A program made the position numbers and the translations under genes. A stretch of 39,727 nt of DNA from Treponema sp. (GTDB lineage: Bacteria; Spirochaetota; Spirochaetia; Treponematales; Treponemataceae): contig JAAYQG010000091.1 in the NCBI GenBank assembly GCA_012519415.1, forward strand, positions 1 to 39,727. The letters run 5' to 3'. Shown piece by piece: positions 25,022-35,387 of this stretch; position 1 is the stretch's first letter, and each line of letters opens with the position of its first letter. The notes under the pieces were generated by a model. The model saw nothing but the letters and a program-made list of their open reading frames with translations, had not been told where the DNA came from and did no database searches.

Positions 25022-25957
25022 ATGAAAAAAAATCTTTTTTTTAGCTTGTTATTTATTTTGTATACTTTTTTTATTTTTGCGCAAGAAACACCTTGTGGAT
25101 ACAAATATAGTTTGAATGAAAACTCAAATATGTTTTTTATGTCCGCCACTAAAGTTAAAGTTTCGGATTTTTCTAAAGAAAAGAATTCTCCTAATCGCGA
25201 AAAAACATATGATTACATAATCTCAAAACGTGGTGCCCTTTCTTTTATCCGTATGCATTTTGATACGAAATTGCATGGTGAATATGATACTCCGCGTTTT
25301 TTTCGGGACTCATCAAACGAGCACTTGTTTTTGTACTGCGAGTATTTTTGTAAGTTCATTGGAAAAAATAATATGGTCGTATATGAGTTTGCACTGACGA
25401 GTCAACTTAGGGAATTCCCATTCGGATTTTTCAAGTGGTGTAAGACAGCCCGTGCGACAGACGAAGTTGTCGAAGGGAAAATAACATACTCGGTAGAGAA
25501 TCTGTTTGACGCCAATAATTTTACGAGTTGTTTTGCAATGTCTAATAACGGCAAGGGTGAGAAGGTTGTATTCGATAGTTCCAACGATGATATGGCACAC
25601 GAAAGCTCCGTTCTTGAAAACGGCGATGTGCAAGTACTCGTTCTTATTTCGGGCTTTGTCGATTATAATCGTCCACATCTGTACAAAAATAATTCCCGCC
25701 CTAAAAAAATTAAATTCACGTTGTATAATCCGCATACTAAAAAAACGACAACAAAAGTGTTTGATGTCAAAGACACTCCACAACCGCAACTGTTACGATT
25801 TGATCAGGTCTTAAGAGGAAATGTTATAACGATGGAAATTATTGACGTATACCCGGGTGAAAAATACGATGATGTGTGTATTAGTAAGTTGTGGGAACGT
25901 CTTATGAGAAGCTGGGAGCTTGAAGAAGACGGAAACATATTGTTTGGGTTGGAGTGA
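25022..25957 (+). CDS. Secreted protein with a discoidin-like (NADase-type glycan-binding) domain
   Basis: A 311-residue exported protein. The signal peptide is MKKNLFFSLLFILYTFFIFA with probable type I cleavage after A20; there is no lipobox cysteine at the site. The C-terminal half (about residues 155-305) matches the pattern of the NADase-type glycan-binding domain, a discoidin-like fold: SVENLFDANNFTSCF, a central VLVLISGFVDYNRPHLYKNN with RPKKIKFTLYN, and IDVYPGEKYDDVCISKLW. The N-terminal half is unrecognised. GGGAGG lies before the start and there are no operon partners. Carbohydrate or surface binding is inferred from the domain only. Confidence 0.7.
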   Translation: MKKNLFFSLLFILYTFFIFAQETPCGYKYSLNENSNMFFMSATKVKVSDFSKEKNSPNREKTYDYIISKRGALSFIRMHFDTKLHGEYDTPRFFRDSSNEHLFLYCEYFCKFIGKNNMVVYEFALTSQLREFPFGFFKWCKTARATDEVVEGKITYSVENLFDANNFTSCFAMSNNGKGEKVVFDSSNDDMAHESSVLENGDVQVLVLISGFVDYNRPHLYKNNSRPKKIKFTLYNPHTKKTTTKVFDVKDTPQPQLLRFDQVLRGNVITMEIIDVYPGEKYDDVCISKLWERLMRSWELEEDGNILFGLE

Positions 25958-26105: not shown

Positions 26106-26972
26106 CTACATCAAAGTTTCCAATGATTCCCGTACAAGATTTATAAATTGTGCGCGCAAAATCGGATCGTAAGTATCTTTTTTTATATCTTCATCAAAGT
26201 AGATTGCTGCTTTTTCCGTAAAAGACTGAACGGTTTTTGCAGAAAACGGCAATTTGTTTCCAATAAGACTGCTTTCAAATTCTTTATTCCTAAAAGAAAA
26301 TACGCCACTGAATGCAAGGCGTAAATCGGATATAAAATTTTTTTGAGTATTTGAGAGAAAAACAAAAGAAGCTGAAAAATTATTAATTTCATTTTTAGGA
26401 CCGGTTCTTTTAAAAATAGAAATATTCCATTCTTCAAGCGGAACTCTTATACGTGTTAAAAAATATCCTGCTGGAACAGCATCAAATTTAGAAAGTGGCA
26501 GTATTATTTGTGTTTCTGTAGGAGAATAATGCTTATCTATATGAATTCGCTCTGTACCGGATCTAAGTACAAGCTTTGCATCAAGCGCAAGAAGCGGTGC
26601 AAAAGTTGTCATTTTCATAGGCTGTGTACATACGTTGCCGCCAATAGTTGCAATATTACGAACTTGTCTGTTTCCTATTGTGCATACTGCATCATATAAA
26701 ACTTTTGGAAATTTTTGCGGCAGATTTTCAATTTGAGAAAGCGTTACACCAGCTCCAAATTCAATAGTTCTTTCTGTTTTGTCAACTTGTCTGAATTCAA
26801 CTATTCTTCGAACATTCAAAATTGAATCAGGATAACTTAAAAAAGCCGGACTGGAACTATAATTTACGCCGGTGCAACCTGCTGTAATTGATAGATTTTC
26901 AATAGTACGAAGATGATAAAGTGCTTCTGCAATATCTTCAGCATATTTAATTTTTATTTGTTCATTACTCAT
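26106..26972 (-). CDS. Xanthine dehydrogenase-family FAD-binding subunit
   Basis: A 288-residue medium (FAD) subunit of the molybdenum hydroxylase family (XdhB/CoxM type). FAD-binding motifs are present: ITAGCTGVNYS replaces the usual AGGT-D/N loop, and ATIGGNVCTQPMKMTTFAPL corresponds to the TIGGN motif. The C-terminal domain RLAFSGVFSFRNKEFESSLIG follows the CO-dehydrogenase flavoprotein pattern. It overlaps the 2Fe-2S subunit gene by 8 bases and ends the five-gene operon. AGGG lies 9 nt before the ATG. The substrate is unknown, and its molybdenum partner looks degenerate. Confidence 0.85.
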   Translation of the reverse strand: MSNEQIKIKYAEDIAEALYHLRTIENLSITAGCTGVNYSSSPAFLSYPDSILNVRRIVEFRQVDKTERTIEFGAGVTLSQIENLPQKFPKVLYDAVCTIGNRQVRNIATIGGNVCTQPMKMTTFAPLLALDAKLVLRSGTERIHIDKHYSPTETQIILPLSKFDAVPAGYFLTRIRVPLEEWNISIFKRTGPKNEINNFSASFVFLSNTQKNFISDLRLAFSGVFSFRNKEFESSLIGNKLPFSAKTVQSFTEKAAIYFDEDIKKDTYDPILRAQFINLVRESLETLM

Positions 26973-27441
26973 TTTTTCGTGCCCTGCGATATTTTGCCGC
27001 TAATATAATAGCGGTTGTTAAAATGTCCATTTCAACGCATTTACATGGCATTGTGGAAACAAACTGCTCAATTTCTGATTTTGTCGGTGTTTTTGTTTTT
27101 TCAATAAATTCGTTGATTGTAAAATATTTGGAAGCTTCACAATAGGCGCAATGATGCACACCTGCTTTTTCAAAAGCTTTATGAATATCTTCATATTCCG
27201 GCATTTGTCTAAAATATTCAATAGTGATTATTGAACTGTCTTGTATTACATAAACAGGTAAAATACAAGAAAGAACAGGAGCATTATCAAAAAGCACTGT
27301 GCATGAACCGCACCTGCCCTCTCCACATCTTAATTTGCTACCAGAAAGTCCAAAATTGTTGCGCAAAATATTTATAAGTTTTTCTGTTCCTGCCATATCA
27401 AGAGTTTCAAGCTTATCGTTTATAACACAATTAATTTTCAC
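26965..27441 (-). CDS. Xanthine dehydrogenase-family 2Fe-2S subunit
   Basis: A 158-residue small subunit with both expected iron-sulphur sites. The plant-ferredoxin-type site is CGEGRCGSC plus a later cysteine in VLSC. The C-terminal helical site is C-x2-C-x31-C-x-C (HCAYC...CKC), with the normal cysteine spacing. The residues around the second site differ from the usual GFCTPG and CRCTGY. The start is GTG at 27441 with AGGA 7 nt upstream. It overlaps the large subunit by 11 bases and the FAD subunit by 8. It would pass electrons between the large subunit and FAD. Confidence 0.87.
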   Translation of the reverse strand: MKINCVINDKLETLDMAGTEKLINILRNNFGLSGSKLRCGEGRCGSCTVLFDNAPVLSCILPVYVIQDSSIITIEYFRQMPEYEDIHKAFEKAGVHHCAYCEASKYFTINEFIEKTKTPTKSEIEQFVSTMPCKCVEMDILTTAIILAAKYRRARKNE

Positions 27442-29506
27442 AAGTTATTCCTTTTTGAGATAAAAGATTAAAGATTGAGTCTGTCTTTAATGGCAACGTC
27501 GTAACTTCAACACCTAAAGCTTGAGAAACTGCAGAGCTAAATGCTGCCGGAACAACGTTTTCTATAACCGAACCTATTTCTTTTGGATTCTCGTTAGATT
27601 GAATAAAAGCAACTTTCGGATAAACAACATTAAGCGAATTCGGTTCAACAAAATTACTCATGATTCTTGAAACTTCCGTTTTAACGCTCGAAGTTGCTGA
27701 TTTTTCATCGAGAAGCTCCCCGCATTCAATTGCAATATTCACATCCCGTAAAGAAACTTCGTAAGTTATTGTGTCTACTTCAACTTCAACGACAGCAGCT
27801 GCCCAAGTTGTAGATTGAAAAGGCTGCCCTGAAAACTCTGATGTATTCCACTGATTTTTTCTTAACGGCGAAAAAGTTTTTTTAACATGAATAGGTAAAG
27901 GTTGCCTAAATCTTGATTTTTGCAAAGTTGTGCAACATTTTTTTAAAAGCTGCGTCATTATAGTAATATTCAACGAAAGCACATCCGGCTCAGCAGGCTC
28001 TTCTGTACTTGAATAATCTGTATCAAAGTGAATATTTTCAGGCGGAATATCAAGAATTTTTTCAATGAAATTTTTCCAAATTATTTTTAAATGTTCCGTT
28101 GGAGAATAAACTTTTACGGAAAGAAAACCGTCTGTATCAAGAGTCGTTTCTAGAGAATATTTTGTTCTAATAAGATCTTCCGCAAGAAAACAGCCCCCTT
28201 CAAATGCAACAGCAAGACCAATACCTCTAAGTTTTTTTTGCGGAGTAATTGGCGGAAAAGATGAAAGCAACTGATAAGCTGTATTTCTTCGCATATAATC
28301 GCTCATTGAAGCAACTTTCTCTATAGTTTCTTCAATGAAAATGGGTCGATATTTACAATAAAAATCAAAACCGTTTTCAGATAAAAAATTTTTCTTTTTT
28401 AATTCGTTTATGTCAATATTCAATTTTTCTGCAATATAATGCATATGATTTTCTATTGCAAAAAACGCTTGGGAATCTCCCCATGTAAAAGTGCAATTTA
28501 GTGGAACATAGTTAGTTTTTATTGCATATGCATCTACACGCAAGTTTGGAATTTTATAAACTCCAGTAGCTGCAATAACAAAACGGTCAAGAATATACTG
28601 AATAAAAGGATTTATAATTCCAGCATTTATCAAAATACAAATATCCATTGAAGTGATTTTTCCTTCAGAATTGCAGGAAGTTCTGTATCGTATTAAAGCA
28701 GGGTCTGAGCGTTCAATGTAAGTTTCTTGTTCAGAAATTGAATAAACAATTTTTACAGGTCTATTAAGATAATAAGATGCAACAGCTGCTTGCGCTGCAG
28801 TTACGCTTGAAATCCATATATCATTTATTCGAGTCTTTGCTTGATGTGTTTTATGAATCAAAATATTATCATCATCTATCGCGAGAGTTTCTGCAACTGT
28901 TTTTCTTAAATGACTTGCCCATTGCGAATTTGTATAAATGTGAAGCTGTTTGCCGTTAAAATAAACAACGCAACTGTTGCGTTCCTCTTTTGGAAGCGTA
29001 ATTTTAGATTTAAAAGTTTGTTCGATTTGATAATGAGATTGTGCAAATATTCTATCAGGTTCACCGTGAAGAATTGAGCGGTTTGCAAGAAGCTGATCTG
29101 CCGAAAATGATTCCGAAAATTCAAGCCCAACTGGCATATTCAGCGAATCTATAGAAAAACTAATTGAAGACAAAAGTTCGTTAAGCTTATGTTCATCTGA
29201 ACCTACCAGAATACCGATTGGTTGGCCATAATAGAGAATATCATCATCTGCAAAAACGCTTGTACTAATTTTTTTTATAAAAACTTTGTTGCTTCCGGGA
29301 ATATCTTTTGCACTAAAAAAAGAAACTCCTTCTGGCAATTCAGGTATTTCAATTTCAAAAACCGCTCCACACTGAACAGGGCTTCTTATAAGAACGGCGA
29401 AAAGCATATTATCTAAAACTATATCGCTTGTATATATATCAGTGTAATCAAAGTGCTTTTTAAGACGAGAACGCTTTTTTTTAGGTTTAGTATCAGTTTC
29501 AGGCAT
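27431..29506 (-). CDS. Degenerate xanthine dehydrogenase/aldehyde oxidase-like large subunit
   Basis: 691 residues, shorter than typical molybdopterin subunits (about 750-800). The N-terminal hammerhead domain is recognisable: FDYTDIYTSDIVLDNMLFA with VLIRSP at residues 19-43. So are GEPDRIFAQS and NRPVKIVYSISEQETY. The motifs that bind molybdopterin are not conserved. GGGFGGK is replaced around residues 219-229 by HQAKTRINDIW, FRGFG by FTWGD near 340, GQG by SPTEH near 470, and the C-terminal GxGE by EIGS near 644. It overlaps both neighbours (8 and 11 bases). It may be a non-molybdenum enzyme or a scaffold; activity cannot be assumed. Confidence 0.75.
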   Translation of the reverse strand: MPETDTKPKKKRSRLKKHFDYTDIYTSDIVLDNMLFAVLIRSPVQCGAVFEIEIPELPEGVSFFSAKDIPGSNKVFIKKISTSVFADDDILYYGQPIGILVGSDEHKLNELLSSISFSIDSLNMPVGLEFSESFSADQLLANRSILHGEPDRIFAQSHYQIEQTFKSKITLPKEERNSCVVYFNGKQLHIYTNSQWASHLRKTVAETLAIDDDNILIHKTHQAKTRINDIWISSVTAAQAAVASYYLNRPVKIVYSISEQETYIERSDPALIRYRTSCNSEGKITSMDICILINAGIINPFIQYILDRFVIAATGVYKIPNLRVDAYAIKTNYVPLNCTFTWGDSQAFFAIENHMHYIAEKLNIDINELKKKNFLSENGFDFYCKYRPIFIEETIEKVASMSDYMRRNTAYQLLSSFPPITPQKKLRGIGLAVAFEGGCFLAEDLIRTKYSLETTLDTDGFLSVKVYSPTEHLKIIWKNFIEKILDIPPENIHFDTDYSSTEEPAEPDVLSLNITIMTQLLKKCCTTLQKSRFRQPLPIHVKKTFSPLRKNQWNTSEFSGQPFQSTTWAAAVVEVEVDTITYEVSLRDVNIAIECGELLDEKSATSSVKTEVSRIMSNFVEPNSLNVVYPKVAFIQSNENPKEIGSVIENVVPAAFSSAVSQALGVEVTTLPLKTDSIFNLLSQKGITCEN

Positions 29507-30677
29507 GGTGAGATTTTCCTATAGAAAGCACCGAATCAATAACTTGATACGCCATTTCGTCTGTCATATCAGGCCATAAAGGTAGCGAAATAGTTGTTTC
29601 AAAATGTTCCTCTGCATTTGGAAAATCTTCAGCTTTAAGCAGATATTCATTCTTAAAATAAGTCATTCTAAAATGCGGAATAAAATGCATCGAAATGCAT
29701 ACACCCGAATCTTGCAACAAAGAAGCAAACTCATTGCGGCTGATTGTTAAAAATTCAGGTTTTATGCGTATTAAATAAAGATGCCATGCATTGCCTTCTT
29801 CGTTAGGAGGAACAGTTAAAAAATCAGCAGATTCAAATGATTTATTATAAAGTTCAACAATGCGACTGCGTTTTTCAAAAAATGTATCAGCTTTTTTCAA
29901 CTGTTCTCTACCGATTGCACCAAGTATATCCGGCAAATTGCACTTAAAACCTGCATCAACAACATCATATTCCCAAGAAGCTTTATCTTTTGTGTAACGA
30001 TCCCATACGGGACGGTCAATTCCGTGCAAACGCATAATCTGCATTCGTTTTGCGAAATCCTCATTGTCTGTTGCAATCATGCCGCCTTCTGCAGTTGTTA
30101 TTGTTTTTGTTGCATAAAATGAAAATACGCCAATATCGCCTAATGTACCTGCAAAACCATTTTTTGTTTTTGATGGAAAAGCATGGGCTGCATCTTCAAT
30201 GATTTTTACATCATAATATGCTGCTATTTGTTTTAATTTTTCCATGTTGCAAACATTACCGGCAATATGAACAGGTACGATAGCTTTTATTTTTTTTCCG
30301 TTTTTTGAATCTTGCTCAAGTTTTTTTTCAACTTCTTCTGGTGAAATATTATATGAATCTTTTTCTATGTCTGCATATTCAACGCGAGCTCCTAAATGAT
30401 GTGCGGCTAATGCTGTGGAAGCAAAAGTATAGGGAGTTGTTAAAATTTTATAACCGTTTTTTGCACCAACTGCATCATATGCAAGCATAAGACCGGAAGT
30501 AGCACTATTTACTGCAAGAGCATATTTCGCGCCTATTTTTTGTGCAAACTCGTTTTCAAATGACATAGTTTCTTTGCCGGTTGTAAGCCACCCTGAACGA
30601 AGAACTCGTAAAACAGCTTCTTCTTCTTCTTTGCCAATAGAAGCTACAGAAAAGTTAATTTTTTGTCTGAGCATCAT
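29499..30677 (-). CDS. DegT/DnrJ/EryC1/StrS-family PLP aminotransferase
   Basis: Transfers an amino group to a keto nucleotide sugar, typically after a 4,6-dehydratase. From the ATG at 30677 (AAGGAG upstream; the next codon is also ATG) the protein has 392 residues. Motifs are GWLTTGKE, SATSGL, TPYTFAST, IIEDAAHAF (PLP-pyridine contact), and the Schiff-base lysine K191 in SFYATKTITTAEGGM. The C-terminal substrate part ends YQVIDSVL. It starts inside the end of the dehydratase gene (23-base overlap) and overlaps the xdh-like large subunit by 8 bases. Confidence 0.92.
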   Translation of the reverse strand: MMLRQKINFSVASIGKEEEEAVLRVLRSGWLTTGKETMSFENEFAQKIGAKYALAVNSATSGLMLAYDAVGAKNGYKILTTPYTFASTALAAHHLGARVEYADIEKDSYNISPEEVEKKLEQDSKNGKKIKAIVPVHIAGNVCNMEKLKQIAAYYDVKIIEDAAHAFPSKTKNGFAGTLGDIGVFSFYATKTITTAEGGMIATDNEDFAKRMQIMRLHGIDRPVWDRYTKDKASWEYDVVDAGFKCNLPDILGAIGREQLKKADTFFEKRSRIVELYNKSFESADFLTVPPNEEGNAWHLYLIRIKPEFLTISRNEFASLLQDSGVCISMHFIPHFRMTYFKNEYLLKAEDFPNAEEHFETTISLPLWPDMTDEMAYQVIDSVLSIGKSHHA

Positions 30678-32142
30678 AAAACTCCTTGAGTGAAGGCACA
30701 TTGTCGCAAAGTGTTTTTAAAAGATATGTTTTATTACGATAAAGGTCTTTCGTTTTTTTATTAAATATGCAAACAGGTTTTAGCAAACCGAGTAATTCTT
30801 TAAGTTCTTTATCTTTAAATGGCAAAGATTTAAGTTTAAGAATTTTGGGGAATTCAGTTTTAGTCGGATTTTCTTCTTCTATCCACAAAGGTTCGTCAAA
30901 GCGTTCACCTTTCCTTGAACCGATAAATTCAATTTTAATGTCTTTATTTGGCTCAAACCCCGAAAAACGAATTATATGTTCTGCAATATCAACAATTTTT
31001 ATAGGTTCACCCATATCAAGAAGATAAGAAAGACCGTTTTTGCCAACTCCGCCTGTTTGAAGAACGAGCGAACAAGCTTCAGGAATTGTCATAAAAAATC
31101 GTTTCATCTCTGGATGTGTAACTGTAACAGGTCCGCCTGTTTTAATTTGTTCCATAAAAAGCGGCAGAATAGAACCTCGACTTCCTAAAACATTCCCAAA
31201 GCGAACAAACATAAATGACTGGTCTTTTGAAGCTTTTTTTGCAGCTGCAAGAACAAGTTTCTCCGAAATCATTTTTGAAACACCATATGCGGAAACAGGC
31301 TCAACTGCTTTATCTGTAGAAATAAGAACAAACCGCTTTACATTTGCTGCAAGAGAAGCTTCAAGCAGATTTTGCGTACCAAATACATTATTTTCGATTA
31401 CTGCAACTGGATTTTCTTCCATTAAAGGCACATGTTTATAAGCCGCACAATGGAAAATCACATCAATGTGCATTTTAGGAAGAAGCCAATCAAGATAAGC
31501 TTTATCTTTAAGTTCGCCAATAACCGGAACAACTGTCGCTTTCTCTCCTACTCCTTCTGCTTGAAGAATACGCAGTTCCTTTTCTATGTGATAAATTGAA
31601 TTTTCACCGTGCCCAAAAAGGTAAAGACGTTCTGCGCCACCGGAAAGCAGCTGACGCGCTAATTCCGAACCGATTGAACCACCTGCACCTGTTATTAAAA
31701 CACGTTTGCCTCTAAGGTAAGATAATGTTTCTTTTAGTGAAATTGTGATAGGAGTTCTTCCTAAAAGATCAAGCGGATTTATTTCGCGAGTTTGAACAAG
31801 ATGAGCTTTTCCATCAATAATTTGCGAAACACTTGGCAAAATTTTAATTTTAGAAAAACCAGCATTGCTTAGGATAACATAAACTTCTCGCAAACGCTCA
31901 TTTGGAGTGCTTGGCATAGCAATAATTGCTTCATCATAAGCACCGGGCTTTAACAAACCTGCCATGCTTATAGGACCATAAATCGGAATACCGTTTATTT
32001 GCTTGCCAATAAGACTTGTATCATCGTCTAAAAAAGCGGTAACACGTCCAAAAATCTTCTTTGCTTCAAGTTCATCCGCTATCATTTGCCCTGCAAAACC
32101 GGCACCAATGATATATACGTGAACATCATTTTTTAATGACAT
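30655..32142 (-). CDS. Nucleotide-sugar 4,6-dehydratase, CapD/FlaA1-like without membrane segments
   Basis: A 495-residue protein with an N-terminal Rossmann sensor-like domain (VYIIGAGFAGQMIADEL) and a catalytic SDR domain (KRVLITGAGGSIGSELARQL near residue 150, IFHCAAYKHVPLMEENP, STDKAVEP followed by AYGVSK). It resembles UDP-GlcNAc 4,6-dehydratases (PglF/WbpM class) but lacks their four transmembrane helices. It has Tyr-x3-Lys where many relatives have Met-x3-Lys. The start at 32142 has AGGA 9 nt upstream. An ATG at 32163 follows a TGCTATTTT element by 6 nt and could be a leaderless start. It heads the five-gene operon. Confidence 0.88.
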   Translation of the reverse strand: MSLKNDVHVYIIGAGFAGQMIADELEAKKIFGRVTAFLDDDTSLIGKQINGIPIYGPISMAGLLKPGAYDEAIIAMPSTPNERLREVYVILSNAGFSKIKILPSVSQIIDGKAHLVQTREINPLDLLGRTPITISLKETLSYLRGKRVLITGAGGSIGSELARQLLSGGAERLYLFGHGENSIYHIEKELRILQAEGVGEKATVVPVIGELKDKAYLDWLLPKMHIDVIFHCAAYKHVPLMEENPVAVIENNVFGTQNLLEASLAANVKRFVLISTDKAVEPVSAYGVSKMISEKLVLAAAKKASKDQSFMFVRFGNVLGSRGSILPLFMEQIKTGGPVTVTHPEMKRFFMTIPEACSLVLQTGGVGKNGLSYLLDMGEPIKIVDIAEHIIRFSGFEPNKDIKIEFIGSRKGERFDEPLWIEEENPTKTEFPKILKLKSLPFKDKELKELLGLLKPVCIFNKKTKDLYRNKTYLLKTLCDNVPSLKEFYDAQTKN

Positions 32143-32240
32143 CAAAGTTTGTCCTAATTTCATTTTGCGAAAATAGCATGAAAAATATAATTCCGCATAA
32201 AATCATTTTAGCACAATTATTTTCATATTTCAATGTTTGC

Positions 32241-34208: not shown

Positions 34209-35387
34209 ATGAACATTTTTCAAAAAGGACATCCTTTCATTATTGCAGAAATTGGAACCGCACACGGCGGTTCTTTTGAAGAAGCACAAAAACTCATTGA
34301 AGCAGCTGCCGCAGCAGGAGCAGACTGTGTAAAATTTCAAATAGTTTATGCAGATGAAATTCTGCACCCAGACACAGGTTTTGTATCGCTTCCCGGCGGA
34401 AATATACGATTATATGATAGATTTAAGGAGCTTGAAGTTACTAAAAACTTTTTTTTCCGCTGTAAAGATTATTGCAAAATATGCGGTATCGGCTTTTGCG
34501 CTTCTCCCTTCGGATTGCAAAGTTTAGATGAACTTATTGCACTTGAACCATTTGCAATTAAAATTGCTTCTCCCGAATTAAACCACTTGCCACTTCTTGC
34601 ACGAACTGCTGCAAAAGCAAAAGATATTCCGATTATTCTATCAAGCGGCGTTTCGAAACTAAAAGATATTGAAAAAGCTCTTGATACAATTAAAAAAAAT
34701 CGCTCCAATAAAAACATGGATAACATTGCACTTTTACACTGTGTTACGAGTTACCCAGCTCCAGAAACAGACTATAACTTAAATGTTCTTGAACCGCTAA
34801 GTAAAATATTCGGCATTGATATTGGAGTAAGCGATCATAGTCTTGATCCGATTTTAGTGCCTGTTCTTGCTACTGCGTGCGGAGCTTCAGTAATTGAAAA
34901 ACATATATGTTTAAGCAAAGATGGAAATGGACTTGATGACCCTGTTGCTCTCATACCGGAAGATTTTAAGAAAATGGTAGAAACTGTGCGTCAAGCTGAA
35001 AGTTCTACAAAAGAAGAAAATATAACAGCACTCAATAGATTTTATGGAGTTGAAAAAGTAAAAGCCGTTTTAGGCACAGGCGTAAAAAAATTAGCTCGTT
35101 CAGAAGAAAAAAATTACGAAAGGACAAACCGCTCCATTCATTTTATGCACAATATGAAAAGCGGTGATAAAATCGGTTTCAATGATATTGCAATTCTTCG
35201 CACCGAAAAAGTGCTAACAACAGGACTTCATCCGTCTTTTATGCCGGAAATAATGAATGCGGTACTTGTAAAAGATGCAGCGAGCGGCGAAGGAGTTACA
35301 CTTTCGCATTTTATTATGAAACAACCTGTTTTGAAGCATGGTCTTTTAAATAAATGCCTTGATAAAAATGTAAATGTAAAAGAATAA
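34209..35387 (+). CDS. NeuB-family sialic/nonulosonic acid synthase
   Basis: Condenses phosphoenolpyruvate with an N-acetyl-hexosamine-type sugar to make a nine-carbon sialic, legionaminic or pseudaminic acid. 392 residues. The TIM barrel has FIIAEIGTAHGGSFEEA, ADCVKFQ, IKIASPELNHLPLL, LLHCVTSYPAPETDYNL, GVSDHSLDP and VIEKHICL. The C-terminal SAF-like (antifreeze-type) domain carries RSIHFMHNMKSGDKIGFND. The exact sugar cannot be read from the sequence. TATAAT at 34186-34191 lies 17 nt upstream, and no Shine-Dalgarno is seen. It converges with lepB. Confidence 0.88.
   Translation: MNIFQKGHPFIIAEIGTAHGGSFEEAQKLIEAAAAAGADCVKFQIVYADEILHPDTGFVSLPGGNIRLYDRFKELEVTKNFFFRCKDYCKICGIGFCASPFGLQSLDELIALEPFAIKIASPELNHLPLLARTAAKAKDIPIILSSGVSKLKDIEKALDTIKKNRSNKNMDNIALLHCVTSYPAPETDYNLNVLEPLSKIFGIDIGVSDHSLDPILVPVLATACGASVIEKHICLSKDGNGLDDPVALIPEDFKKMVETVRQAESSTKEENITALNRFYGVEKVKAVLGTGVKKLARSEEKNYERTNRSIHFMHNMKSGDKIGFNDIAILRTEKVLTTGLHPSFMPEIMNAVLVKDAASGEGVTLSHFIMKQPVLKHGLLNKCLDKNVNVKE

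Follow-up and report, generated by a model that had tools for sequence, protein, structure and literature searches.

A xanthine dehydrogenase-like gene trio of spirochaetes without the molybdopterin-binding motifs of its family

Organization of the five-gene operon

The window, the whole stretch of 39,727 nucleotides of Treponema sp. DNA analysed here, contains five ORFs of one operon on its minus strand. The first (30655-32163, minus strand, with a possible start at 32142) encodes a soluble two-domain UDP-sugar 4,6-dehydratase of the PseB/CapD/PglF type, which shows the STDK...Y residues and a Polysacc_synt_2 domain (2e-110). The second (29499-30701, minus strand) encodes a DegT/PseC-like PLP aminotransferase (DegT, 1.5e-109) with its PLP-binding lysine (FSFYATKTITTAEGG), although a start at 30677 or 30674 is likelier. 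These are followed by three genes that encode a xanthine dehydrogenase (XDH)-type large subunit without molybdopterin motifs, here named L (27431-29506, minus strand; Pfam MoCoBD_1, 1e-37, MoCoBD_2 and Ald_Xan_dh_C), a 2Fe-2S subunit, FeS, with eight cluster cysteines (26965-27441, minus strand; Pfam Fer2_2, 6e-8, and a weak Fer2), and a FAD subunit which keeps the TIGGN motif (26106-26972, minus strand; Pfam FAD_binding_5, 8e-27). The dehydratase and aminotransferase genes overlap by 23 or 20 bases if the latter starts at its second or third methionine, and by 47 bases from its longest ORF; the overlaps of aminotransferase and L, L and FeS, and FeS and FAD are 8, 11, and 8 bases, respectively. 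The ORFs, overlaps and Pfam domains bear out the five overlapping minus-strand genes described in an earlier note made from the sequence alone. The NCBIfam xanthine dehydrogenase models match L, FeS and FAD, each of them far below its cut-off. Adjoining the operon, a gene on the plus strand (25022-25957) encodes a secreted-looking protein with a NADase_transloc F5/8-type domain (PF25302, 1.8e-12).

Distribution, gene order and selection

A scan of named genomes confirmed 117 relatives, and all 80 listed belong to spirochaetes, including T. denticola, T. putidum, T. lecithinolyticum, Gracilinema caldarium and Breznakiella homolactica. L is present in every near-complete genome surveyed of the order. 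When 24 further genomes were searched with a profile, other families of the class proved to have full-length orthologues. The four members tested of a small-genome family (f7) gave none, and outside the class, among the 24 genomes searched, only G135 gave a match, which was partial. The phylum scan with the L signature RFRxPLPI, described below, only served to choose genomes for the profile search, and the reversed control pattern matched often outside the class.

The order NusG paralogue, dehydratase, aminotransferase, L, FeS and FAD recurs in several further families of the class. The survey of gene order suggested in the earlier note found its recurrence through the class Spirochaetia at more than 100 loci, contrary to the lack of conservation that would have refuted that note, and the presence of the L cluster in other genomes rules out a strain-specific oddity. 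L and FeS are adjacent at 129/129 readable loci, and FeS and FAD at 127/127. A NusG-like gene (PF02357) is found at 34 of the 55 loci of the first set and is absent from several loci in the genus to which the window belongs. The NusG paralogue heads the operon in many spirochaetes, such as at loci L028 (3872-4396), L050 (3532-4077) and L052 (6327-6941), which we take to be reminiscent of the RfaH/LoaP/UpxY-type control of surface-polysaccharide operons.

The dN/dS of L between congeners is about 0.05-0.07, like that of its neighbours, and is an approximate value given that dS (1.3-3) is near saturation. These ratios and the intact frames rule out a pseudogene. Furthermore, the order kept across the class and the strong purifying selection indicate that the adjacency of the genes is not due to chance, as the overlaps had suggested.

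Fold of L and its place in the xanthine oxidase family

An alignment of 37 L orthologues (A1) was the input for an AlphaFold2 model of L. Modelling of L alone, out of the three-subunit complex proposed for structure prediction in the earlier note, gave a complete XDH large-subunit fold, with a mean pLDDT of 86.8 and a pTM of 0.87. According to Foldseek and VIA-align, the model matches large subunits of XDH and xanthine oxidase (XO) from end to end (Z of 37-39 and rmsd of 3.3-3.7), with about 655 of 691 residues aligned and 20% identity by VIA-align, and a search with the A1 profile recovers R. capsulatus XDH with an E of about 1e-61. Given the model, the structural match and the profile match, L is a genuine xanthine-oxidase-family protein by its predicted fold. 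The L orthologues form one clade, with a support of 100/100, against 16 canonical proteins that include E. coli XdhA, XdhD and PaoC. By these sequence measures, the L family is a single clade of ancient origin that evolves under strong purifying selection.

The L complex shares with XDH/XO (XdhABC; R. capsulatus XDH, 1JRO/2W55, and bovine XO) the large-subunit fold, the separate FAD and two-cluster 2Fe-2S subunits, and homology. However, L lacks GGGFGGK, FRGFG and GQG, does not conserve the catalytic Glu, and has the new signature in its C-terminal half; in addition, the operon order is L-FeS-FAD behind sugar genes, and most of the surveyed hosts make no molybdenum cofactor (Moco). The superfamily and the three-subunit plan are also common to quinoline 2-oxidoreductase, 4-hydroxybenzoyl-CoA reductase and aerobic CO dehydrogenase, which occur in the same PDB match lists as XDH, but the NCBIfam models of these enzymes score far under their cut-offs on the window proteins. 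The three are all molybdenum enzymes bearing the motifs.

Molybdopterin-binding motifs sought in L

The window L shows none of the four motifs GGGFGGK, FRGFG, GQG and GxGE. Pattern counts found GGGFGGK and FRGFG in 0 of the 55 orthologues of the first set, and GQG in two of them, as AGQGA (L051) and AGQGG (L074), with positions known from the alignment only. Across the larger set, GGGFGGK was found in 0/134 sequences and a single FRGAG occurs, by chance. Canonical XDH paralogues from the same order do bear such motifs. When the L profile is aligned residue by residue with R. capsulatus XDH, residues with no relation to the motifs occupy the first three of these sites: the consensus of the L profile is ESLDGKLW at GGGFGGK, FAGLG at FRGFG, and PSES at MGQG. 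This alignment, together with the pattern counts, rules out that the motifs are present in shifted form, an outcome that the earlier note had named as refuting its reading. The fourth loop is kept in the window L as KEIGSV (residues 642-647), with Ser646 at the position of the catalytic Glu, which in the 37 orthologues is Glu in 15, Asp in nine and another residue in 13; the C-terminal GxGE loop persists as a loop, not as a motif. The motif loss claimed for L holds for GGGFGGK, FRGFG and GQG, but not for GxGE, a motif that only some members of the family have lost. As judged from the alignments and counts, the cofactor-binding motifs are gone family-wide.

The new signature of L is RFRxPLPI (RFRQPLPI at residues 532-539 in the window). 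Some version of it is found in 130 of 134 L sequences, with R532 invariant. Other invariant or near-invariant alignment columns are R41, W196, W231, R406 and E574, and W231 adjoins the residue aligned with the Glu802/E232 position of XDH.

Among the features that define the xanthine oxidase family, the large-subunit fold and the homologous domains are found in L, and the motifs for two [2Fe-2S] clusters and FAD are found in the partner subunits of the window; the molybdopterin/Mo motifs and an invariant catalytic Glu are not found in L. Since these defining features were looked for and are missing, the L complex should not, on its sequence, be filed as a molybdenum hydroxylase.

The 2Fe-2S and FAD subunits

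All eight cysteines (C39, C44, C47 and C59; C98, C101, C133 and C135) are kept in the 2Fe-2S subunit of the window, and Cys 98, 101, and 133 are invariant in the FeS alignment (A3). The context of the proximal cluster changes from QCGYCTPG...CRCTGY in XDH to HCAYCEAS...CKCVEM in the window. In XDH, the Q of QCGYC and RCTGY lie next to the proximal cluster and are turned toward the pterin. The cysteine patterns of both clusters are intact in 117/129 FeS subunits. Ligand cysteines of the plant-type cluster are lost wholly or partly in L062 (from a 1.14-Mb genome), L128, L041 and L040, where the proximal cluster stays, and the proximal cluster shows CC instead of CxC in L043, L054, L103 and L131; the lineages with altered clusters still have both L and the FAD subunit. 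TIGGN is found in 103/126 FAD subunits, and FAD_binding_5 in 43/43 near-complete relatives, a count that includes canonical paralogues. The statement that both subunits keep their cofactor motifs is correct for the window, but the 2Fe-2S motifs are not universal in the family.

Molybdenum cofactor supply in host genomes

Of 59 genomes of the order, 39 gave no match to any of MoaA, MoaC and MoeA, and 37 of these 39 carry L. In the window's genome (98% complete), MoaA, MoaC, MoeA and MoCF_biosynth were undetected and the controls worked; MoCF_biosynth was absent from 12/12 genomes tested, and 13/14 controls gave a match. Two genomes of the window's family, G022 and G032, show MoaA and MoaC without MoeA. 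In the closed genome G045, without Moco genes, L is an intact frame of 698 amino acids, whereas in-frame stops break up the large subunit of the canonical XDH (L086, G045:C1:669500-673500), which is also truncated.

The T. denticola-like closed genome G021 contains a second XDH-like large subunit (L087, 1019-3313), which is intact and shows the near-canonical motifs MGGSFGGK, CRAYGG, EQGCG and KSVGE. None of MoaA, MoaC, MoeA and MoCF_biosynth was found in this genome; therefore, gene absence by itself is no proof of cofactor absence. Genomes G206 and G208 of family f13 contain several other XDH-family frames and no MoaC match, so that in f13 the absence of MoaC alone is an imperfect sign. The survey of moa/moe genes suggested in the earlier note found most surveyed carriers without MoaA, MoaC and MoeA. 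The loss of motifs and the missing cofactor genes in most carriers give good support to the prediction that the L complex acts without molybdopterin.

The sugar genes and their link to the trio

The dehydratase and the aminotransferase belong to the same families as PseB and PseC of pseudaminic acid synthesis, whose NCBIfam models are the best for both genes, and share with them STDK...Y and the PLP lysine. However, both fall below the equivalog cut-offs, with 356.4 bits (cut-off 423.5) for PseC and 182.5 bits (cut-off 407.75) for PseB, and the window dehydratase is a longer two-domain form. The PLP lysine is found in 91/91 readable aminotransferase orthologues and the tyrosine of STDK...Y in 60/60 readable dehydratases, in agreement with the catalytic residues of PseB and PseC. 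The aminotransferase and L genes are same-strand neighbours, mostly overlapping, at 115 loci. Furthermore, the window contains a gene for a NeuB/PseI-type nonulosonic-acid synthase on the plus strand (34209-35387).

Flagellin was undetected in exactly five genomes, G043, G046, G049, G051 and G057, and NeuB and the aminotransferase were undetected in the same five, which belong to one family and are not independent cases. Among near-complete genomes, NeuB is missing only in these five. This pattern of NeuB loss points to flagellin glycosylation. The flagellin glycan of T. denticola is reportedly a nonulosonic acid. The dehydratase and aminotransferase are probably a neighbouring module for a 4-amino-4,6-dideoxy-sugar that serves flagellin nonulosonic acid, which fits the co-absence of flagellin, NeuB and aminotransferase.

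L-FeS-FAD is kept in all five genomes without flagellin, and in every one of them a NusG-type ORF lies immediately before L; in G043, G046, G049 and G057 neither dehydratase nor aminotransferase is beside the trio. In the two f13 genomes G206 and G208 the trio likewise has no sugar genes next to it, which makes f13 a second lineage of this kind. In addition, the aminotransferase was undetected in G015, G017, G039 and G042, where flagellin and L are present. Since the trio stays where flagellin, NeuB and aminotransferase are undetected, it is a neighbour and not an obligatory partner of the sugar genes, and an exclusive role in flagellin glycosylation is ruled out. E1-type sugar 3-dehydratases lack the PLP lysine. 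Because all readable neighbouring aminotransferases have it, a role of the trio as electron donor to a PMP-dependent enzyme of this type, as in the ascarylose-like E1/E3 system, was also rejected.

Proposed function

We favour, with a probability of about 0.55, that the trio is a molybdenum-free flavin/iron-sulphur electron-transfer complex descended from a xanthine-oxidase-family heterotrimer, where electron transfer is what we infer. In this scheme, a soluble donor or acceptor would exchange electrons with the [2Fe-2S] clusters by way of the FAD. The pterin/substrate cavity of L would now be vacant and reshaped by RFRxPLPI and two tryptophans, so as to take up either the final substrate or a partner that docks there. 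The sugar-gene module would be co-expressed with the complex and not needed by it. What counts against a molybdenum-free trio is that some L keep Glu at the catalytic position. A tentative extension is a class-wide spirochaete enzyme family whose XO fold would carry out catalysis without molybdenum; in the absence of the pterin, the proximal [2Fe-2S] cluster would be the innermost cofactor and form with RFRxPLPI and the two tryptophans a new active site; if so, the substrate of this site would be common to motile, non-motile and host-restricted spirochaetes.

The earlier note had proposed a redox partner in nucleotide-sugar modification, that is, a complex that oxidises or reduces the nucleotide sugar for the dehydratase and aminotransferase, for instance toward flagellar nonulosonic acid. 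The 115 aminotransferase-L pairs are spread across the class Spirochaetia, and the conserved R406, R532 and R534 could bind nucleotide-sugar phosphates; however, the persistence of the trio in the five genomes without flagellin, NeuB and aminotransferase runs against the proposal, as do the f13 trios without the sugar pair and the four flagellin-bearing genomes with L and no detected aminotransferase, and we hold it to be unlikely. It is quite unlikely that L is a non-catalytic scaffold or sensor, a pseudoenzyme in a trio that would persist for its part in assembly, docking or redox sensing and not for turnover, while the clusters drift away. The loss of plant-type cysteines, the change from CxC to CC and the non-conserved catalytic Glu would fit such a role, but most FeS and FAD subunits keep intact clusters and TIGGN, L has near-invariant residues, and its dN/dS is about 0.06.

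That the complex still is a molybdoenzyme, with cofactor held by changed motifs, obtained from outside or made by unrecognised synthesis genes, is very improbable. An acidic residue is found in the catalytic loop of 24/37 orthologues and G021 has its intact near-canonical XDH without recognised Moco genes; against this, three separate pterin/Mo-contacting motifs are replaced in the orthologues, and L occurs in 37 genomes without moa/moe, one of which has a broken canonical XDH and an intact L. An artefact, by a pseudogene, misassembly or chance neighbours, deserves hardly any credence, already refuted by intact frames, the order conserved at the surveyed loci and purifying selection. For most members, electron transfer is the simplest interpretation. 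Some members may have a partly structural role, because plant-type 2Fe-2S ligands are lost in several lineages; in L062, L128, L041 and L040 this loss would break the relay from FAD to the clusters.

We know of no xanthine-oxidase-family complex that works without molybdopterin, from a limited literature search. Loss of the cofactor is known from the other molybdopterin family, in complex I, where NuoG stays in an electron-transfer complex and is a works-like comparison only. The inactive FdhF-like domain of StnC is also a molybdopterin-family protein that lost its cofactor and has a place in an electron-transfer complex (PMC10482914). Unlike L, whose model best matches XDH-type proteins, NuoG and the StnC domain belong to the unrelated DMSO-reductase family, have 4Fe-4S clusters and are parts of known machines.

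L is present in every near-complete genome surveyed of the order, and a spirochaete genome that ranks among the smallest has it too, which suggests that the complex should do something basic in spirochaetes. Genome G026 most probably belongs to Treponema pallidum; it is closed, measures 1,139,633 bp and carries the cluster at about 84-91 kb. TPASS_0079 and TPASS_0081 of T. pallidum were published as molybdoprotein-binding xanthine dehydrogenase (PMC4403809), and this automatic annotation was all that we found in the literature on TP0077-TP0081 and on molybdenum-free XO-family enzymes. These xanthine dehydrogenase names are probably misleading, and metabolic models should not assign purine or aldehyde hydroxylation on the strength of L-trio genes. 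Because canonical XDHs coexist with L in related genomes, the L family is a clean system for the study of how an enzyme family changes after the loss of its metal cofactor.
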